Assembly (NCBI RefSeq): GCF_003574315.2
Contig: NZ_AP025739.1
Coordinates: 6,882,001 to 6,946,000, forward strand
Length of the DNA stretch: 64,000 bases
Origin: Capsulimonas corticalis
Lineage (GTDB): Bacteria; Armatimonadota; Armatimonadia; Armatimonadales; Capsulimonadaceae
Reading direction: 5' to 3'
Each line of letters opens with the position of its first letter. Positions within the stretch are counted from its first letter, which is position 1. Below are positions 53,559-64,000 of the stretch, in pieces. The notes below the pieces were generated by a model. The model saw only the letters and a program-made list of their open reading frames with translations. It was not told where the DNA came from and searched no databases. Position numbers and translations under genes: made by a program.

Positions 53559-53762
53559 ATGCTGCCCATTCTCATTATCCTGTATTTTTTCGGTGGCCTC
53601 GCCAGCTTTATCTTCCTGGTCATCCAATATCTACGTTTTGCCATACGCCGACAGCGACAAATCATGGACGCCATCTATTCACTCGGACAGGGATCAGCCA
53701 CTCAAGTTAACGAGTGGCTGTTGTGTTCTCTTATTACTGGTGATCGTCCAGCGTACACGTGA
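53559..53762 (+). CDS. Small membrane protein
   Basis: 67 residues, one or two hydrophobic helices at the start ([20 protein letters not shown]) and a basic region after ([17 protein letters not shown]), i.e. positive-inside tail. Its last 29 bases overlap the end of the convergent prepilin-like gene. Plausible but small. Confidence 0.5.
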
Positions 53763-54513
53763 TCGTAGGATCACTCCCGCCAGTAACCATTTGGTTCGCG
53801 ATGATATCGGACACCAGATGCCATTTCGCATGACCATCGATATAATTAATGTTCTGACCTTCGGAGTGGCGCTGGGAGAGACCGTCAGTCATCCAATCGA
53901 AATAGCCATCGTTGGTTGATCCCGCAGTATTATCCCCAGCGCCATCATCTCCAAAGTTCTCTTCTCCAAATAGCATCCATGAAGAAGGATTGTCGAAAGC
54001 GGAGAGATGTCGGCCAATTCTTAATCCATTGACGACCTTCCCCTTATCAACACAGGCGTTGATGGCATAAGAATCCCCAGACTTCTGCCCTACGGTGTCA
54101 TCAGTGCAGATGAAGACTCCCTTATTGCGCACATAGGGGTACAAGCTCCCCTGCGATGGATCGTAGGCTCCTGGCGTTGTCGCGGGATACGCCTTGTAGA
54201 AGATCCATCCGCCGTGTATATTCGCGCCCCAGGTGTTGTCCGCAGCGGCGGGCATTTCCTCGTCGCTATCCTGCACGTATTGCATCACGGCGATTCCCAA
54301 CTGTCTCATGTTCGACATACACGCCATCTGGCGAGCCTTTTCGCGCGCCTTAACAAAGGCTGGAAAGAGCAGGCCAGCGAGAATCGCGATGACAGAGATC
54401 ACAACGAGCAGTTCGATCAGCGTAAAACCGAAAGTGCGGCCCCGACGTGTATTCCGAGCGCCATTCGGCGTCTGCTTGGGCGGAATGCGTGAGACGGTAA
54501 TTTGCGGAGACAT
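53734..54513 (-). CDS. Prepilin-like protein with H-X9-DG ending (DUF1559-like)
   Basis: 259 residues from the ATG at 54513, which has AGGGAAAG two bases before it; the frame extends to 54561. After about 28 residues comes the class III prepilin signal [20 protein letters not shown], with Glu5 intact. The C-terminus has [17 protein letters not shown], the H-X9-DG motif. Such pseudopilins are cut and methylated by PilD-type peptidase and used by type II secretion-like systems. It is the last gene of the six-gene operon. Confidence 0.88.
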
Positions 54514-54567
54514 ATCTTTCCCTAATTCCTGCATCGGCAGCCGTAGCTTCTTCGACGCCAATCGATC

Positions 54568-55260: not shown

Positions 55261-56085
55261 TCATTGAGTGCTGAACGTCATCTGCACAGGTGTCGCGCCA
55301 TCGGAGAGATACATCTGATCCGTTGCTGCCGCCTGATCAGCCTTCAGATGATCTTGAGCATTCCCCGACCTTCCGTCCGTACCGCTGGAAACCTGCCCGC
55401 CAAGAAGGTACGACACATGTCCATCCGCTCCCAAGAAATTCGAGCCGCCGCCGTGGCGGGGAGTATTGTCGGCTCCAGAATCGATCCCTTTGCGTTCGCC
55501 CAAATTGCCCGTGGCGTAGGTGATGTGGGCTCCCTCCCCCCACTGGCCGTAGGGACGCCCTTGATTGCTGGCGAGCAGCCCAAATCCGCACGGCGAGAGC
55601 ATTTTGCTGGCGGGCTGGACCTTCCACTGATTGCTGCCTTCATCGGCCTTTCTCACATCAACCTGTACGCCGCCGACCTCAAACAGCATGACCGTGCTGG
55701 CGGGCGCCTTGAGCTTGGAGAACTGGTCGATCAGATTCGCATTGATCCCATAAGAGACAGGAACGGCGCCTCCACTAGCAAGCCCGAGGTCGTCGGGACA
55801 CTTGTAAGGCGCGGCAGATTTCACGTAAGGGTAAATACGTCCAGCCCAGCCCTGCGGCCCCTCAAAAAACTTTGGTGGAAAGCATTGGTCATTGTCCTGA
55901 ACATACTGCGCCAACCCCAGCCCGAGGCGGCGCATATTGGAGGCGCAGGTGATCTGCGGAGAAGGCTTCAAACGCGCGAGGAGAATAGCGCCGAGAACCG
56001 AAACGGCGGCGACGGAGATCAGGGTATGGATGAGAGTAAAACCGACTTCGGCGGTATGCGATCCGCGCCGAGAATTTGTGGACAT
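55261..56085 (-). CDS. Prepilin-like protein with H-X9-DG, lacking Glu5
   Basis: 274 residues from the ATG at 56085 (56106 also possible). The signal reads GFTLIHTLISVAAVSVLGAI: the usual Glu at +5 is His. The rest follows the H-X9-DG family (CASNMRRLGLGLAQYVQDND, CPDDLGLASG) with RHGGGSNFLGADGHVSYL at the C-terminal third. Loss of Glu5 in pilins normally stops methylation or assembly contacts, so this protein may be a terminal or minor pilin, as in GspK-type subunits. It precedes the discoidin-like gene by 18 bases. Confidence 0.82.
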   Translation of the reverse strand: MSTNSRRGSHTAEVGFTLIHTLISVAAVSVLGAILLARLKPSPQITCASNMRRLGLGLAQYVQDNDQCFPPKFFEGPQGWAGRIYPYVKSAAPYKCPDDLGLASGGAVPVSYGINANLIDQFSKLKAPASTVMLFEVGGVQVDVRKADEGSNQWKVQPASKMLSPCGFGLLASNQGRPYGQWGEGAHITYATGNLGERKGIDSGADNTPRHGGGSNFLGADGHVSYLLGGQVSSGTDGRSGNAQDHLKADQAAATDQMYLSDGATPVQMTFSTQ

Positions 56086-56129
56086 GATTTCTATTCCTTG
56101 ATGCAATATGGCTCACGCTAAAAAGGCGC

Positions 56130-59100
56130 TCACTTCTTCTGGGAATGACTCTTCGGCGTGATCTTCAGCGGATTGGCGGGATGCGATAAAGATCGCGATG
56201 CGGGCGCCGTGATTGGCGAGAGGACAAACTGGCATTGTCCACGCTCACTCTCTCTGTTGAGCCCAAGAACCTCGCCGCTATTGTTAATTGACAGCGCCAA
56301 GCAAGAGTGGGCCATCTTCTTCTGACGCGCGGGATCCACGACCAGCAAGGGGATCAAGTCTCGCATGCCATGAGCGCTGTCCCATAGAAAGGGTCTGCCG
56401 CCAGGGTAGGCGATCTGGTTGTCGGGGCGGCTCTCGCCGATCACCTGTCCAGCGTCGTTCACTCCCAGGGCTCGGGAGTAGACATCACCAGGAAGCGCTC
56501 CCAAATCGTGCAGAACGCCATTCTCCCAAAGAAACGCCGTGACGGAGCCGTCAGCGTGGTCGGCGGATCCAACCACCTGTCCAGCGTTATTCATTGCATT
56601 CGCGACGCTCACATGCCCATCCCCGAACACACCGATATCGTTCATGACGCCATCCTCCCACACCATCGCATGTGTTCGGCCATCGACGGTTAGTACCCAG
56701 CCTGCGATCTGACCAGCATCGTTAATGGCATAGGCTCGGCTGCTGACGCAGTTCGGTAAAACCCCAAGGTCTTTCATATGACCATCTTCCCAGAGGACCG
56801 CGCGGGAAGAGTTTTCAATTGGCGAGTCTGCTTCCGCCGTACTGTTGAAAGCGTAGCCAACGACCTGTCCTTTGTCGTTGATCGCCTCAGCACGGCTATT
56901 CGTAAATCCTGGCAGCGTTCCCAGGTCACGAACCGCGCCATTCCTATCCCAAAGGGCGGCGTGGTCTGCCCCATTCTCAGGGTTAGACCAGCCGACAGCC
57001 TGACCTGCGTCATTCACCTTAACCGCCGCGCCATTCCCTTCGCGAGTCAACGTCTCCAGCATCTCAAATCGCCCATTTCTCCAGAGATAGGGCCGCGTGT
57101 TGCTGTGGGTCACCACATACGAAGCGACCAATCCTTGCTGATTGATTCCTCCGTCATGTATCATAAACTGCATGTCGGGAATTGGATTGAATACCTGACA
57201 TTGATATTGCGTCGCTTCAGCGGAAGTGTACGCCGACGCCTCCCATCTGCGCTGAAACCTTGGAGAGGAATCCGTATCCAGCGGCTGACGCCCCAGGAGA
57301 AAAAGCGCGTCCGACGTGGAGAGCGCCTCTGGCCGCTTGTGGAAGTAATATTGGCTTGCTTGTTCGAGACCGCCTGTTGGCGCTCCATAATCACGGTCGT
57401 TTAAATACAGCTCTTTGATGCGCGCTTCGGGAATGAGGGTGCTGATCATGGAAGCCAGAACTGTTGATGATATTATTGTGAACGGATTCCGCCGTCGATC
57501 ACCTCCGACGACTCGCCGCGCAATCGTAACAGCCATTCGCGGCGACATTTGAATACGCGATCCAAAAGCCTGGCGAAAAATATCGTGCTCATCTTGACGG
57601 GACACAGCAGCGGGCATGCCACTTGGCAGCGCGTTTTGCAGCGTTCCAGGCATTGAGCTCCACGGGACGAATGCGGCGACGCCGATTGGGGAGCCAGAGC
57701 CAGTCATCGACCACGCGATCCCCCACAAAGCGCAAAACCAGACGACAGGCGCCAGAACGCAAATCGCGCCAATCGCCAAATGAGGCTTTCGGAAAGGAAT
57801 GGGGAATAAGACACGAAAGGCCCGCGCCGATGACTGCCTCGAAGTAACGCCAGAGATCGCCAGCGAGGCGATGCACAACGCCAGCACCCACACACCTGAA
57901 GTGTTGTTCGCGATCCGCCCGAACGCCAGCAGCGCAACGAGCGTCGTGACTGCGCTGGCTGCAAGAGCCTGGGCGTCGTGGTTGGCGCGTAAGCGCTGAT
58001 CGGGGCGACGAGTATCAGCCCCCGCAGTCAGGCGCGCGTCACATGACGCCTTCATCAGGGCATCCCAGCTTCGGCACAGTGCATCCACAAGCAGCAGGCC
58101 AAGGATCCCCCAGAAAATCCATCCCTCCTGAGCAATGAAGGAGGAAATGGACCCAGGCGAACCTCCCGAAGTTCTCAGACCCGTTCCAGCAAGCATCTCT
58201 CGGACACTCTGATCCGTATTCCACGCCTCGGCGGCAAGGTATGTACGGAAGACATATAGCGCACCGCAAAGCACGAATACCGCGATAGTTCCCCAATAGG
58301 GCGGCGTGATGCGTTGTCCAAATGCTCTCCCTGACCACAACATAGCTCCTAGACAGCATGCGACCAGCGCAATGCTGGTCCATCCCGCCCCGCCAGAAAT
58401 TTCGACCGCTGGATCGAGTATGATCGCCGCGCCGCCAGCCAGCGCCGCCAGAGCGTAAGGTAAGTAAGAAAGCCTCGACACGGAACCGCTGGTGAGGCGG
58501 TCACTTTCGGTAAAGAGCGAAGGCAGAGCAAGCGACAACACGGCGACCGCTGGGAGGCCCGCCTGAGCGTGCAATCCGATCAAGGAACATGTCGCCACGG
58601 CAAGAAGTAGATCCCGCCAGGCTGCGGGTCTGCGCACCGTGCGGACGGCAACTACGGCAGCAAGAACGGCGAGGCTCACGCCCAGCGAGCTGCTATAAGG
58701 ATAGTCTCGTACATTTGATGTCAGCCAATCCTTCAAGCACAGCCAGACCAGGGCGCCCCCGAACGCTATTCTCCCAAGAATTGCTGTCTTATCCGTTCTC
58801 GAAGTTCGCGAACTCTCCTTCGCCGCAGACCCGTCTAAAGGCTGGACTGTGGAGTGCGGAATAGCGACATCGCGGAATACAAAGACTTGAAAAGCGCGTC
58901 TCTGCTGCTGAGAAGACTGGAGAGTACCACTATGGATTTTCCGACGTAACCATCGGAAGATCGCAATGGGTCTGCGCCACAACGAGTTGATTCGCGGCAA
59001 TGCTGCGACCAAGGAGACTGGCTCTAAACGCTGCCGCAAGCGAACCTTGACGCTCGTCAGTGATTGTGGATCCACGGCGACATGCTGTCGCTCGCACATA

Positions 59101-60119
59101 CCCACGAATGAATAAGCAAGAATCGCCAAAGTTCCCGCCGCGAAAGCAAACCACCATATCCGCGCTCCTGTGTTGTTATATGTAAGGACAGTTGCAGCCT
59201 GGCAATACCCGAGCAACCCATATAGCGCACCTGCTGCTCCTGCAAAGAGATTTATCCTACCTATCTGATCCTGATTACCGTCGATCAGGAATGTGGCTGC
59301 TCGCCATTTCTCTCGCCCAGGAAGACATCTGTAAACTCCACAGCCCGTCGCACACAAGACCAGCAATAAAAGAAAGCGTATTAAACCGCCTGCCGCAAAA
59401 ATGACGGAGATCGTCACTGCTCCCAACCCCATCATAAGCAGAACGAAACGAGCTGTTCCAAGAAAAGCATTGGGAATCACAATCGAAATCTGTCGCTCCT
59501 GCGATTCCAATATCCAGTTGTCTTCAGGGGAGAGACGCCAGGAAGCGAGGCTGGACGCGCCCAAGATGAGCACTACAAGCACACCCCACTGTGGCAACGC
59601 CGTCATGCCGACATTTTGTCGTAAAAGCGCCGCTCCTTCATCTTCTTGGGGGAAGAAACACAATGTGAACAACGATGTCGCGACGACGATCAGATGGAGC
59701 TGATTATGGGCGCGAGACGCCGATTGCCCCTGCGCCGATCCCAAAATCGACGCCCAGGACAGACTGAGTGCGATGATGGCAAGCATTGGATAGAGGCCAT
59801 TCTCTCGCAACCATAACGCCAGACTCGATTGGCTGAACGTCATGAGAACCAGGAAACTTAGAATACTGGTGACGCCCAGCAACGCGGCAAAATCCGCCGC
59901 TCGGAGGCGCCGAACGCCATCCCGCATTACTGATCGTAGTTCTTTCCCCCACACACGAAATGTGTCAGCCCCCAACGGCTGATTCAGAGGCTGCGCGAGC
60001 TTCTGGATATCATTTGCGTCCAAAGGCCGATTGAGGCGCGACCATAAGGCTTTGAAAATGTTTGGCGAGCGGGGCGGATCGCTTGTCTGTTGACCAGCGC
60101 TCTCTGTCGAATGTCGCAT
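56130..60119 (-). CDS. Giant multi-span protein with degenerate GT51 region and HAF repeats
   Basis: 1,329 residues. About 1-80 soluble; about 18 hydrophobic spans between 75 and 805, in two blocks split by a loop at 355-440. The second block has a faint SEDS (FtsW/RodA) look (GSISSFIAQEGWIFWGILGL). Residues about 835-945 resemble GT51: RIKELYLNDRDYGAPTGGLE and ASQYYFHKRPEALS match the paralogue at 60581, and Glu844 sits where the first catalytic Glu is expected, but GGSTITQQ is replaced by NPFTIISS. About 980-1300 hold five or six HAF repeats (DLGTLPGFTNSRAEAINDKG), a predicted extracytoplasmic beta structure. Likely a scaffold or pseudoenzyme. Confidence 0.75.
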   Translation of the reverse strand: MRHSTESAGQQTSDPPRSPNIFKALWSRLNRPLDANDIQKLAQPLNQPLGADTFRVWGKELRSVMRDGVRRLRAADFAALLGVTSILSFLVLMTFSQSSLALWLRENGLYPMLAIIALSLSWASILGSAQGQSASRAHNQLHLIVVATSLFTLCFFPQEDEGAALLRQNVGMTALPQWGVLVVLILGASSLASWRLSPEDNWILESQERQISIVIPNAFLGTARFVLLMMGLGAVTISVIFAAGGLIRFLLLLVLCATGCGVYRCLPGREKWRAATFLIDGNQDQIGRINLFAGAAGALYGLLGYCQAATVLTYNNTGARIWWFAFAAGTLAILAYSFVGMCERQHVAVDPQSLTSVKVRLRQRLEPVSLVAALPRINSLWRRPIAIFRWLRRKIHSGTLQSSQQQRRAFQVFVFRDVAIPHSTVQPLDGSAAKESSRTSRTDKTAILGRIAFGGALVWLCLKDWLTSNVRDYPYSSSLGVSLAVLAAVVAVRTVRRPAAWRDLLLAVATCSLIGLHAQAGLPAVAVLSLALPSLFTESDRLTSGSVSRLSYLPYALAALAGGAAIILDPAVEISGGAGWTSIALVACCLGAMLWSGRAFGQRITPPYWGTIAVFVLCGALYVFRTYLAAEAWNTDQSVREMLAGTGLRTSGGSPGSISSFIAQEGWIFWGILGLLLVDALCRSWDALMKASCDARLTAGADTRRPDQRLRANHDAQALAASAVTTLVALLAFGRIANNTSGVWVLALCIASLAISGVTSRQSSARAFRVLFPIPFRKPHLAIGAICVLAPVVWFCALWGIAWSMTGSGSPIGVAAFVPWSSMPGTLQNALPSGMPAAVSRQDEHDIFRQAFGSRIQMSPRMAVTIARRVVGGDRRRNPFTIISSTVLASMISTLIPEARIKELYLNDRDYGAPTGGLEQASQYYFHKRPEALSTSDALFLLGRQPLDTDSSPRFQRRWEASAYTSAEATQYQCQVFNPIPDMQFMIHDGGINQQGLVASYVVTHSNTRPYLWRNGRFEMLETLTREGNGAAVKVNDAGQAVGWSNPENGADHAALWDRNGAVRDLGTLPGFTNSRAEAINDKGQVVGYAFNSTAEADSPIENSSRAVLWEDGHMKDLGVLPNCVSSRAYAINDAGQIAGWVLTVDGRTHAMVWEDGVMNDIGVFGDGHVSVANAMNNAGQVVGSADHADGSVTAFLWENGVLHDLGALPGDVYSRALGVNDAGQVIGESRPDNQIAYPGGRPFLWDSAHGMRDLIPLLVVDPARQKKMAHSCLALSINNSGEVLGLNRESERGQCQFVLSPITAPASRSLSHPANPLKITPKSHSQKK

Positions 60120-60149: not shown

Positions 60150-60584
60150 TTATTTTTGCCCTGAATTCAGGATTTTTTGTTCTGTGCCCACATGCCCAGT
60201 AAGCAAGAGCCACGTTTCAACTTTCTGGTCTCCATGCGTCGTCGCGAAACACCCACCAGATGAAATCTCCTTCGTATCTTCAAGCTTCACATTCAGCGTC
60301 ACGTCCGCCTGTCCGTGTGGAGGAATAACGGGAGCAGACACGCTGGCGGTCGTACATTCGCATCCTGTCGTGACAATCGACAGGCCCACAGGAAATGAAT
60401 GAGGATTGCTCAGTCGAAAGGCGTGGGTTAGCGGATGGTCAGCAGGAATGGTCCCTACGTCATAAACGGTTCCTCCTGCGACTTCCACCGCAGGCTTTTC
60501 ATGGCCACGCATTTTAAAGGCAATGCCGACTCCAAAAAGCAACGAAACGGCGATCAGAAGCACTATTGAAATCCGAGTGCTCAT
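60150..60584 (-). CDS. DUF1573 family protein
   Basis: 144 residues from the ATG at 60584, which overlaps the stop of the upstream gene (ATGA). An N-terminal membrane anchor (ISIVLLIAVSLLFGVGIAF) is followed by an Ig-like ASH/DUF1573 fold: TVYDVGTIPADHPLTHAFRL, the strand FPVGLSIVTTGCECTTASVS, and IPPHGQADVTLNVKL. DUF1573 proteins are extracytoplasmic and of unknown role. The CEC pair may form a disulfide. Confidence 0.88.
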   Translation of the reverse strand: MSTRISIVLLIAVSLLFGVGIAFKMRGHEKPAVEVAGGTVYDVGTIPADHPLTHAFRLSNPHSFPVGLSIVTTGCECTTASVSAPVIPPHGQADVTLNVKLEDTKEISSGGCFATTHGDQKVETWLLLTGHVGTEQKILNSGQK

Positions 60585-63028
60585 AGGTTTGCCTTCTCGA
60601 CACAAACACTCTCACCATCAGATCGCGCATAGAACTCATTCTTCGGCAGGAGCAGATTTCCTCGCTGCGGATCGGACACCAGGAGATAATCTCCCCACTC
60701 GCCCACCACGACGATCCAATGTTCCGTAGGACGGGTCAAGGTGACAATGGCTGGTATCCCAGTTGTAGCGATATCGTCCAAAAGTTCATCCGAAGTCGCG
60801 ACAGTGTCGACCGTTTGCACTCCATGCGCTTTGAATGCCCGAATCAATTCGTCACTCCTAGTGCAGCGAGCACCTCCTGTGTCCAACAGATGCATAAGTT
60901 GAAGTTCACTGGTCGGTTTCTTGAGATAATCGGACAGGATCGCCGCAACACAAGCCTCTCCGCACGAGTGGCCCGTTGTTTGCCGAACGAACGTCCCACT
61001 TAGCCATGTGGCAATACGGGCAGGTAAGTGTTTAGTCTGATGTATCTCCGCCATCGTTTCTTCGACGGATTTGGCAGGAGGATCTTGCACAGGACGTGGA
61101 GTTGTTGAGCGTGGCCCCTTCACTTCGGTGTGAAAGTGTGTCTGATGGCGCTTAGGGTCGTCATTCCAATCCACCACGGCGTCGAAGTGGCGATTGAGCA
61201 TCGCCTCCAACGGCGCGAGACGCGCCATCACCTTCGGATTGTTATGATCCTTGACACTCACTCGCGAGCCATCCGCGAATCGAAAGCCAGAGATATCAAT
61301 GGCTTGTCCATATGCGTGCGACGAAATGACTTTCTCCTCCTGGCGCGTGCTTCGGTCGTTATATACACCCAGGTGGTCGATCCCCACCACATGCAAATGC
61401 TGATGCGCCTCAACTAGAAATCCCGCGAGGCGAACCTTTAAAGAAAGCGACGCATTATCGATGGGCAGCGGCTCATATGGATTCTCAAAAAAATAGAACT
61501 TCACGCCATGCCAATCGGCTGGTATTTCGCATGTCGCTCCTCGATCCCAGGCGTCCTTATTAGGATAGACCAGCATGTTGAGCGGATACCCCGAAGCCAG
61601 ATCGCATTGTTCTTGAGAATATCGATTGGGGAAGAAGTATCGAATACGACTGAAAGCTGTGTGCTGGCCTACTATTAGCCTCTGGGGATCGACCTGCTTT
61701 TGCATGGGGTCGGACACAATCCCGACAAGAATTGCGCTTTCCGCTAGGGTCAGTTTATCTGGCGTTTTATGGAAATAATATTGCGCTGCGGCTTTAAGCC
61801 CCCGCTGCCCCATTCCATAGTCAATCGTGTTCAAATATAGCTCAAGAATACGCGACTTGGGCAGCATGCGCTCCAGCTCCAAGGTGTAGGCCGCCTCCTC
61901 AATCTTGCGCCATATAGTTCGATCACTCGTAAGGAACAGATTCTTGGCAAGCTGCTGGGTGATTGTGCTGCCCCCCTCTTTGACCTGTCCTTCACTTAGA
62001 TCAACACGTAGGGCATGGTGCATGGCGATCCAATCGAAGCCATGGTGTCTGTAGAAGGCATGGTCTTCCATGGCAATGGTGGCATCCTGCATTGATGGTG
62101 AGATATTTTCTAAATAGACGAAATCTGCCTTTGTAGCTGAATAATGGCTGTATGGCAATACTCTCCATTCAAGTAAGTGGTCAAAAGAGATAAGTACGCC
62201 AGTCAGAATGAGAAGGACAGTCATAAAAAAAAATGGATGTCGTCTCTTGCGTGTTCTAGATAATATCTTATTAGGCGGTAAATCTGAGCCACTTAAAATA
62301 GCTATTGATAGGAAAAACAGACATAAGCCAAAGGGTTCTTGCAGACTTATCCTTGCTCGCACGCCACATAAAAATATTGATAGCAGTATGCAAGCAGGAA
62401 CAAAAAACAGAGCACAACTTATATATATAAACTCCAAATCACTTTTACGGCTCAGATTAGTGAATAATGCACTCCAGCCAAGAAACAATGAAGCGATAAG
62501 CGAGGTAAGAAGAACAGGCAAAATACTCCATCCTAGTTCTTCACATAGAAATTGGGCAGGTGATATGCCAGAGGCGATGCCTTTCGCTCTGATTCCCTCC
62601 CCCAGCCAAATAGAATTAGCAAGAGACGAAGATACAGGAGTTGGATACAGGATAAAAATACGTATAGCACAAAGTGATAAAAGAATTATGAATCCAGCAG
62701 CTATTAAGAGAATCAAATTGAAAATGAAAGAGCTTATTTCCTTTCGTTCGAGATTGCGCTTTCCTTGAATGCGGTAAAATTTCGAAAAATATCGATATAA
62801 CATCCATGGCGCGAACACGGCAAACAAGGTCTGGAGGAAAGCGATATAGGGATATGGGCTTGCGCTAGAAAAAAGAGCGTCTTTTATGACCAATATAAGG
62901 CAAACTGCAAATCCTATTTCAAAAGTAGCACTAATTGCCCCTTTCCAGTTCAGGCACAGCCCTAATCTATTTACTATACCATGGAGGCAATCAGCCTTTT
63001 GTTCTAATGCTTCTTGTGAACGTGGCAC
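60581..63028 (-). CDS. Membrane - GT51 - M15/extensin-like - C39 peptidase fusion
   Basis: 815 residues from a GTG at 63028. Order: about seven membrane spans (32-282); GT51 peptidoglycan glycosyltransferase (about 300-470) with Glu321 in MEDHAFYRHHGFDW, GGSTITQQ at 352-359 and second Glu378; an M15/extensin-like Zn peptidase (about 520-640) with His571, Asp578 and the HFH pair at 631/633; and a C39-type cysteine peptidase (about 675-810) with Gln683, Cys689, His770 and Asp786. All three catalytic sets look intact. It could extend glycan strands, trim stem peptides and cut a target protein at the inner membrane. First gene of the operon. Confidence 0.88.
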   Translation of the reverse strand: MPRSQEALEQKADCLHGIVNRLGLCLNWKGAISATFEIGFAVCLILVIKDALFSSASPYPYIAFLQTLFAVFAPWMLYRYFSKFYRIQGKRNLERKEISSFIFNLILLIAAGFIILLSLCAIRIFILYPTPVSSSLANSIWLGEGIRAKGIASGISPAQFLCEELGWSILPVLLTSLIASLFLGWSALFTNLSRKSDLEFIYISCALFFVPACILLSIFLCGVRARISLQEPFGLCLFFLSIAILSGSDLPPNKILSRTRKRRHPFFFMTVLLILTGVLISFDHLLEWRVLPYSHYSATKADFVYLENISPSMQDATIAMEDHAFYRHHGFDWIAMHHALRVDLSEGQVKEGGSTITQQLAKNLFLTSDRTIWRKIEEAAYTLELERMLPKSRILELYLNTIDYGMGQRGLKAAAQYYFHKTPDKLTLAESAILVGIVSDPMQKQVDPQRLIVGQHTAFSRIRYFFPNRYSQEQCDLASGYPLNMLVYPNKDAWDRGATCEIPADWHGVKFYFFENPYEPLPIDNASLSLKVRLAGFLVEAHQHLHVVGIDHLGVYNDRSTRQEEKVISSHAYGQAIDISGFRFADGSRVSVKDHNNPKVMARLAPLEAMLNRHFDAVVDWNDDPKRHQTHFHTEVKGPRSTTPRPVQDPPAKSVEETMAEIHQTKHLPARIATWLSGTFVRQTTGHSCGEACVAAILSDYLKKPTSELQLMHLLDTGGARCTRSDELIRAFKAHGVQTVDTVATSDELLDDIATTGIPAIVTLTRPTEHWIVVVGEWGDYLLVSDPQRGNLLLPKNEFYARSDGESVCVEKANL

Positions 63029-63532
63029 AGGTATTGTTCCCTATTGAATCAAAGCTTATTCTCCAACCCATCGATCGTAGAGAGACCTCTCCTATATCCG
63101 ATGCAATGGGATAAAGCTTAGTCTGAGATATTTTGACTTGTTTTCCTCACATCATCGACATGAATGAAGTATTCCGTAACAATATTGGGAATGGTTGTGG
63201 CGAAAATTAGTGCGAGATTAGCGTAATTCCCTCAACGCAATTTTTGTCACGACAGTTTGCAAAAAACAATATATACGGATAGATTTTAAGTACATACTCT
63301 TAAATTTAGTTTATTTGGAGACAATCTCCACCCTCATTTTCGTAAATTCTTCTTATCTTTTACTTGCATCGGACGAAAAGCCCCGAGATGCATAGAATCC
63401 CTGCATTTAACGGTCTTGATGAGGTGAATTAAAGTTAAATCAATGTTTTATCCATTAGTTCCTAAGACCTCATGCACAATATAGAACTGATGCGGAGGCA
63501 TCGACAATACGAAACGCGACAATAAAAATCGC
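63029..63532. other. AT-rich intergenic region, 504 bases
   Basis: No gene in either strand. It lies upstream of the six-gene operon (minus strand) and downstream of the gene at 63533, so it should hold the operon promoter. TTGCGT at about 63242-63237 with TAATCT 19 bases further on the minus strand is a weak candidate. Base composition is far more AT-rich than the first 36 kb. Confidence 0.5.
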
Positions 63533-64000
63533 CTAGCGCCGCCTTCTCCATAATAAAATAGCGACAAACGCGATCATTACCCCACATACCACATATACAC
63601 CTACTGCACTGCGTCGAGGTTTAGTTGTAAGTTTATCGTCCTTTATTGGACGAATACTAAAGACTTTTTGATCACTAGGAATCCCATGATTTGCTGCATA
63701 TGATACAGGAATATTCTTATCAAACCGATAATCATCTAAGTGCGTACCGATTGGTAGACCGTTAGAAATCAGGTCAGTTTTCGCCAAAGCATTAAATTTG
63801 GCGCTTATTAGATTATACTCTTCATCTTGAAGAACTGCTCCCGATTCAGTCATTTGCAAAATTTGTACATGTGATGGAAACCAAATCGAATCATTATATA
63901 ATTTATATCCATCTGCAGTATATTTATTTCTTGTTTTTCCATTGGTTCCATCAACGATCTCTATCATTATTGGTCGAGAATATTTATCGGAAACATGGCA
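63533..64000 (-). CDS. C-terminal part of a surface protein with tail anchor (start outside window)
   Basis: The frame is open to the window edge (codons ahead of the ATG at 63967 read CHVSDKYSRPI). Visible: a beta-rich domain (YNDSIWFPSHVQILQMTESG), then a membrane helix at the very end (GVYVVCGVMIAFVAILLW) and RRRR. That is an extracytoplasmic domain with a C-terminal anchor. The part with KLYNDSIWFPSHVQ resembles LolA-type outer-membrane-lipoprotein-sorting proteins, uncertain. AT-rich like the rest of this end of the window. Confidence 0.6.
   Translation of the reverse strand, partial: CHVSDKYSRPIMIEIVDGTNGKTRNKYTADGYKLYNDSIWFPSHVQILQMTESGAVLQDEEYNLISAKFNALAKTDLISNGLPIGTHLDDYRFDKNIPVSYAANHGIPSDQKVFSIRPIKDDKLTTKPRRSAVGVYVVCGVMIAFVAILLWRRRR

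Follow-up and report, generated by a model that had tools for sequence, protein, structure and literature searches.

The window analysed here, a stretch of 64,000 nucleotides from Capsulimonas corticalis, holds a gene whose product carries a peptidoglycan glycosyltransferase (GT51) domain, an M15/extensin-like zinc peptidase domain and a C39 peptidase domain behind a membrane part. What might a protein with all three do, and does the combination exist as one protein? The gene is a single unbroken frame with a GTG start codon, reading from 63028 down to 60581 on the minus strand of a 7.65 Mb genome assembled on a single contig, and its stop overlaps the likely ATG of the downstream DUF1573 gene as ATGA. 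The single frame, this overlap and the conservation of the GT51-M15 pair rule out a frame fusion or assembly artefact. The extent and the 815-residue length given in an earlier note on this DNA were confirmed. The features are presented in Table 1.

Table 1. Features in the window and at related loci. Positions are those of the window unless a locus (L) is named.
Feature	Position	Strand	Remarks
Fusion gene, membrane part-GT51-M15/extensin-like-C39	60581..63028	-	815 aa; ORF and Pfam
Membrane part, residues 1-296	62141..63028	-	six predicted spans; probably shortened Wzy_C; AT-rich, GC3 0.33
GT51 peptidoglycan glycosyltransferase domain, residues 297-444	61697..62140	-	Pfam; catalytic Glu321 and Glu378 intact
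Extensin-like_C/M15-type zinc peptidase domain, residues 544-636	61121..61399	-	Pfam; His571, Asp578, His631-x-His633
Peptidase C39 domain, residues 680-812	60593..60991	-	Pfam; Gln683, Cys689, His770, Asp786
DUF1573 (Ig-like) membrane-anchored protein	60150..60605	-	likely ATG at 60584
1329-aa membrane protein	56130..60119	-	degenerate GT51, then HAF repeats; catalytic motif absent
DUF1559 prepilin-like protein	55261..56106	-	Pfam
DUF1559 prepilin-like protein	53734..54561	-	Pfam; type IV N-terminal methylation motif
397-aa secreted protein, C-terminal part	63533..64000	-	C-terminal anchor and RRRR tail; whole at L032:9534-10727
Separate Wzy_C gene of the window cluster	L032:13256-14545		past the window edge
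AT-rich stretch, ~7 kb	62100..64000 (start); L032:7800-15000		GC 0.37-0.45 vs 0.51-0.59; through Cys-rich, DUF1573-like and Wzy_C genes
Complete Wzy_C-GT51 fusions	L095:7260-9479; L096:6704-8785; L097:7724-9901; L109:6625-8799; L110:1061-3169
G044 Wzy_C-GT51 cluster copies (n=3)	L095:5001-14956; L096:4315-9716
Small Cys-rich secreted proteins	L032:11182-11604; L096:5013-5480; L109:3482-3844

The Pfam matches of all three domains exceed the curated gathering cut-offs: Transgly (PF00912) yields 178 bits against a cut-off of 27 (E 1.5e-52), Extensin-like_C 53.6 bits against 25.4 (E 4e-14), and Peptidase_C39 (PF03412) 49.9 bits against 22 (E 3.6e-13). With these scores, the protein belongs to the GT51 family by its two catalytic Glu and GGSTITQQ (E321, 352-359 and E378, read directly), to the Extensin-like_C/M15 peptidases by its H-x6-D ... 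HxH site, and to the C39 peptidases by a complete Gln, Cys, His and Asp set. Both the identities that the earlier note had assigned to the domains and the catalytic residues that it had named (Glu321, GGSTITQQ, Glu378, His571, Asp578, HFH at 631-633, Cys689, His770 and Asp786) thus held up. Hydropathy gives six membrane spans instead of the approximately seven previously counted, all before residue 287 (the last at 268-286), so that the three catalytic domains share one membrane side. The topology of GT51 is established and, together with the spans, indicates that all three domains should be extracytoplasmic. When the structural check proposed for the three sites was made with AlphaFold, the M15 part of an M15+C39 model was obtained at high pLDDT, the C39 part did not resolve, and the whole protein, modelled with six sequences, reached a pLDDT of 49.

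The solved structures that best match the GT51 domain are Aquifex and penicillin-binding protein (PBP) transglycosylases, the top match being the Aquifex PBP1A transglycosylase. In class A PBPs, GT51 has a transpeptidase as its partner, which crosslinks the newly made strand. The fusion protein shares with class A PBPs and MtgA both catalytic Glu and the GGSTITQQ motif, yet Pfam finds no transpeptidase domain (PF00905) after its GT51, which sets it apart from class A PBPs, and a polytopic membrane part replaces the single anchor. It also falls below the MtgA equivalog cut-off (TIGR02070, 162.5 against 182.65 bits). Because the same genome also encodes a true class A PBP, in which GT51 is followed by a transpeptidase, the GT51 of the window would be accessory.

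The M15-type domain resembles the Extensin-like_C/M15 (LAS) peptidases (PF06904, PF13539) in its H-x6-D and HxH metal-site pattern and through a profile link to M15_4. Compared as profiles, this domain and the M15_4 proteins of the phylum match with a probability of 95% (E 2.4e-8), against 0.2% for a reversed control, whereas the fusion protein scores only 14.8 bits directly with Peptidase_M15_4 (cut-off 25). It differs from known members in sitting behind GT51 in the same chain. Foldseek with the M15 model returned no significant structural match, and no solved extensin-like relative came up when the PDB was searched with the M15 profile. A free-standing Armatimonadota relative of the domain carries PG_binding_1, which fits wall peptide as the substrate. 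In another genome (G159, L089:88-1863), a 592-aa protein has a C-terminal M15_4 domain behind a CapA-type polyglutamate-synthesis-like domain.

The C39 domain aligns with the peptidase domain of PCAT1 across the whole Q683-C689-H770-D786 set (E 3e-4 to 4e-4). Despite this match, an ABC-transporter-type peptidase was rejected on the Pfam architecture, given that the protein has no ABC domain and its C39 is not N-terminal: in PCAT transporters such as PCAT1 and ComA, C39 is N-terminal, cytosolic and joined to an ABC domain, whereas that of the window is C-terminal and predicted to be extracytoplasmic. Its position downstream of GT51 likewise implies that it should act outside the membrane. The nearest C39, with 29% over 171 residues (E 1e-22), is a secreted peptidase encoded by another genome of the phylum. 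It has FapD/FilB similarity, and the protein next to it resembles FilC and has an N-terminal domain of the pilus-formation type. FapD itself is a C39 peptidase of the periplasm; amyloid secretion in Pseudomonas requires its catalytic Cys (PMC5557850), and its substrate is unproven (PMC5557850; PMC6173800). The secreted-side location (predicted), the Q-C-H-D set and the FilC-like neighbour of the nearest relative suggest that the window C39 resembles periplasmic FapD/FilB-type peptidases more than ABC-transporter ones. A role in periplasmic maturation or as a chaperone is then the nearest precedent, and a canonical double-glycine leader need not be the substrate. The likeness stops short of membership (NCBIfam FapD/FilB, 17.8 vs 330 and 20.9 vs 475 bits); the window C39 is the C-terminal domain of a membrane protein, and no Fap fibre or pore genes were seen in the cluster. 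A search for a GG-motif client among the cluster proteins found GG sites, VEVAGG/TVYD of the DUF1573 protein among them, none of them C39-specific, and is uninformative because the DUF1573 protein beside a C39-less paralogue has a similar GG. At L012:2-2160 (genome G019), a C39 peptidase that is secreted and its FilC-like neighbour, with a pilus-formation-type N-terminal domain, form a possible Fap/Fil-like secretion pair in Armatimonadota. C39 domains also occur in long proteins at L038 (G057:C75), where C39 precedes RHS/YD-repeat-like sequence, and at L040 (G000:C1:7192530-7192772).

Pfam finds nothing above cut-off on residues 1-296, and O-antigen ligase/polymerase (Wzy_C, PF04932) gives no match there at E<=1. 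When the N-terminal parts of the window's protein family were compared as a profile with the Wzy_C half that adjoins GT51 in complete fusions, the probability was 92% (E 6.6e-7; reversed 0.7%). This signal comes mostly from members in Chthonomonadaceae (f9); the probability is 5% when only the N-terminal parts of this genome's two sequences are used. With moderate confidence, the membrane part is probably a shortened Wzy_C domain, in which the ligase loop looks degraded; complete Wzy_C domains are fused directly ahead of GT51 in three other families of the phylum. A SEDS (FtsW/RodA) origin, prompted by a GxGxG...EEQG motif, was rejected at a profile probability of 0.3%, with no PF01098 match up to E=10 at the locus, and a similarity to SecY (17.6 bits, below cut-off) was treated as hydrophobic noise. 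A chain of ~1000 residues that does join a SEDS (FtsW/RodA-type) and a penicillin-binding transpeptidase domain lies at L055:1-2976 (G000), and similar long SEDS frames are found in other genomes with SEDS matches.

A profile of the region after GT51, including M15, was run against 291 genomes of the phylum and gave full-length matches in eight genes of seven genomes: two copies in the window genome and one in each of six other Armatimonadota genomes. GT51 and M15 are joined in every one of these relatives, contrary to the refutation that the earlier note had allowed for, namely a frame fusion of genes that are separate in close relatives. Across the eight aligned proteins, E321 and E378 of GT51 and H571, D578, H631 and H633 of the M15-type domain are invariant. 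One conserved peptide pattern, scanned across 84,980 species, found five of the profile-found loci and none outside the group, the pattern being strict enough that divergent cases may be missed. A plasmid search gave no record that covered 80% of its query; what it listed were places with PBP-type GT51 matches. The paralogue in the same genome has GT51 and M15 without C39, and it too precedes a DUF1573 gene. Among the eight genes, only that of the window carries C39, and no close C39 was found in other genomes of the order. No second protein with GT51, M15 and C39 in one chain was found either, in line with the earlier note, which knew of no such described protein. Only one genome extends the conserved GT51-M15 protein into the triple fusion; judged from sequence, the GT51-M15 fusion is inherited and C39 is a separate gain.

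The composition of the locus breaks inside the fusion gene. The AT-rich stretch covers the upstream genes and residues 1-296, with its edge between the membrane part and GT51; GC is back up to about 0.50-0.56 across the GT51-M15 part, and the GC3 of the C39 part is host-like. At the same Wzy/GT51 junction, the identity between the fusion protein and its paralogue rises from 30% to 79%. A comparable pattern is seen in genome G044, whose three Wzy_C-GT51 cluster copies are roughly 89-98% identical in DNA over ~500-690 bases upstream and over the GT51 part, with the prepilin at 99% in two of the three; between these shared ends, Wzy_C half included, they are at or near the level of unrelated sequence. 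A copy in G080 repeats the conserved ends and unrelated middle. Near-identical ends around unrelated middles suggest cassette exchange, and the G044 pattern, combined with the break in composition and identity in the window, places a likely recombination boundary at the Wzy/GT51 junction. Hence, the front half of the cluster appears to have been exchanged between lineages as a cassette.

The fusion gene belongs to a conserved and widespread gene set, seen in neighbourhoods from 13 genomes, although not every member was seen in each cluster. The set comprises a small Cys-rich secreted protein, an anchored secreted protein, Wzy_C, GT51 and a DUF1559 prepilin; DUF1573 is often part of it, as is a sigma factor or regulator. 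GT51 is joined to Wzy_C, stands alone, or occurs with M15 and C39; where unfused, the Wzy_C and GT51 genes adjoin, and a DUF1559 prepilin is nearly always beside them. The anchored proteins are secreted, of 330-510 aa, with a membrane anchor at the end and mostly a basic tail. Across families they fall into several recognisable homology groups; at E 1e-3, the anchored proteins of one G044 cluster and of the window cluster have no match among the others. The small Cys-rich secreted proteins, one or two per cluster, are highly variable and have no family match where tested. In the window, the 1329-aa protein is a putative pseudoenzyme relative of the fusion protein. The literature searches made found no published description of such a cluster or of an O-antigen ligase-GT51 fusion, and nothing on extensin-like proteins in connection with M15. 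The Wzy_C-GT51-prepilin cluster is apparently undescribed, and it is a more important find than the triple fusion.

With about even confidence, we regard the fusion protein as a wall-remodelling enzyme, tethered to the membrane and acting outside the cytoplasm, in the service of a dedicated surface-assembly cluster. GT51 would build a local glycan strand by polymerising lipid II, and the M15-type domain would prevent crosslinking of the strand by trimming its stem peptides. C39 would act on a secreted protein of the same operon, by cleaving or chaperoning it, in the manner of FapD in Pseudomonas amyloid export. The membrane part would be a shortened ligase domain, its ligase function now residing in the cluster's separate Wzy_C gene, and, on the simplest reading, local synthesis, trimming and client maturation would all be kept at one membrane site. 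We infer from sequence features that the three domains are active, as well as the direction of trimming and the client. Of the earlier interpretation, the domain identities stand; its further proposal, that a client is processed as the wall is built or opened, we likewise infer.

Three other explanations were weighed. GT51 and Wzy_C might instead cooperate on a lipid-linked glycan specific to the cluster, in a machine for glycan-protein or glycan-wall ligation in which GT51 makes the strand, Wzy_C moves the glycan onto the strand, a prepilin or an anchored protein, and M15 and C39 are accessory. The Wzy_C family includes ligases that glycosylate pilins, which favours this reading, as do the complete Wzy_C-GT51 fusions of three families and the adjacency of the unfused genes to each other and to the prepilin. 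We consider it less likely than the wall-remodelling reading: GT51 retains ordinary lipid II motifs, the Wzy_C part is degraded in the window protein, and the candidate glycan and acceptor are only hypothetical.

The other two concern the peptidases. One or both could be non-cutting, C39 serving as a leader-binding domain or chaperone and the M15-type domain as a wall-binding anchor for the glycosyltransferase. Catalytically dead C39-like domains do occur in type 1 secretion (noted in PMC5557850), and the lack of a solved extensin-like relative in the PDB search points the same way; the intact Q-C-H-D and H-D-HxH sets, the latter invariant across relatives, argue against it and leave this option improbable. 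That C39 was added recently, is non-adaptive and plays no part in the operon would agree with its presence in one of eight GT51-M15 genes and with the absence of a close C39 elsewhere in the order. Against this, the C39 part has intact catalytic residues, an unbroken frame and host-like GC3, and the gene overlaps the next one as ATGA; we regard this option as very improbable.

Beyond the wall-remodelling enzyme itself, we tentatively propose, at somewhat less than even confidence, that the cluster is an undescribed surface-assembly system of Armatimonadota. An O-antigen-ligase-type enzyme would be physically coupled to GT51 and a dedicated prepilin, and the secreted proteins and the ligase would be swapped as a cassette between conserved ends, as in capsule loci; the window protein would represent a branch in which the ligase decayed and two peptidases were added. 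Whereas class A PBPs pair GT51 with a transpeptidase, the window protein pairs it with a peptidase, and relatives pair it with a lipid-linked-glycan ligase. Such partners would allow a direct test, with single proteins, of how wall synthesis is coupled to the assembly of surface polymers or pilins, and the cluster offers a handle on the role of some DUF1559 prepilins and DUF1573 proteins in the phylum.
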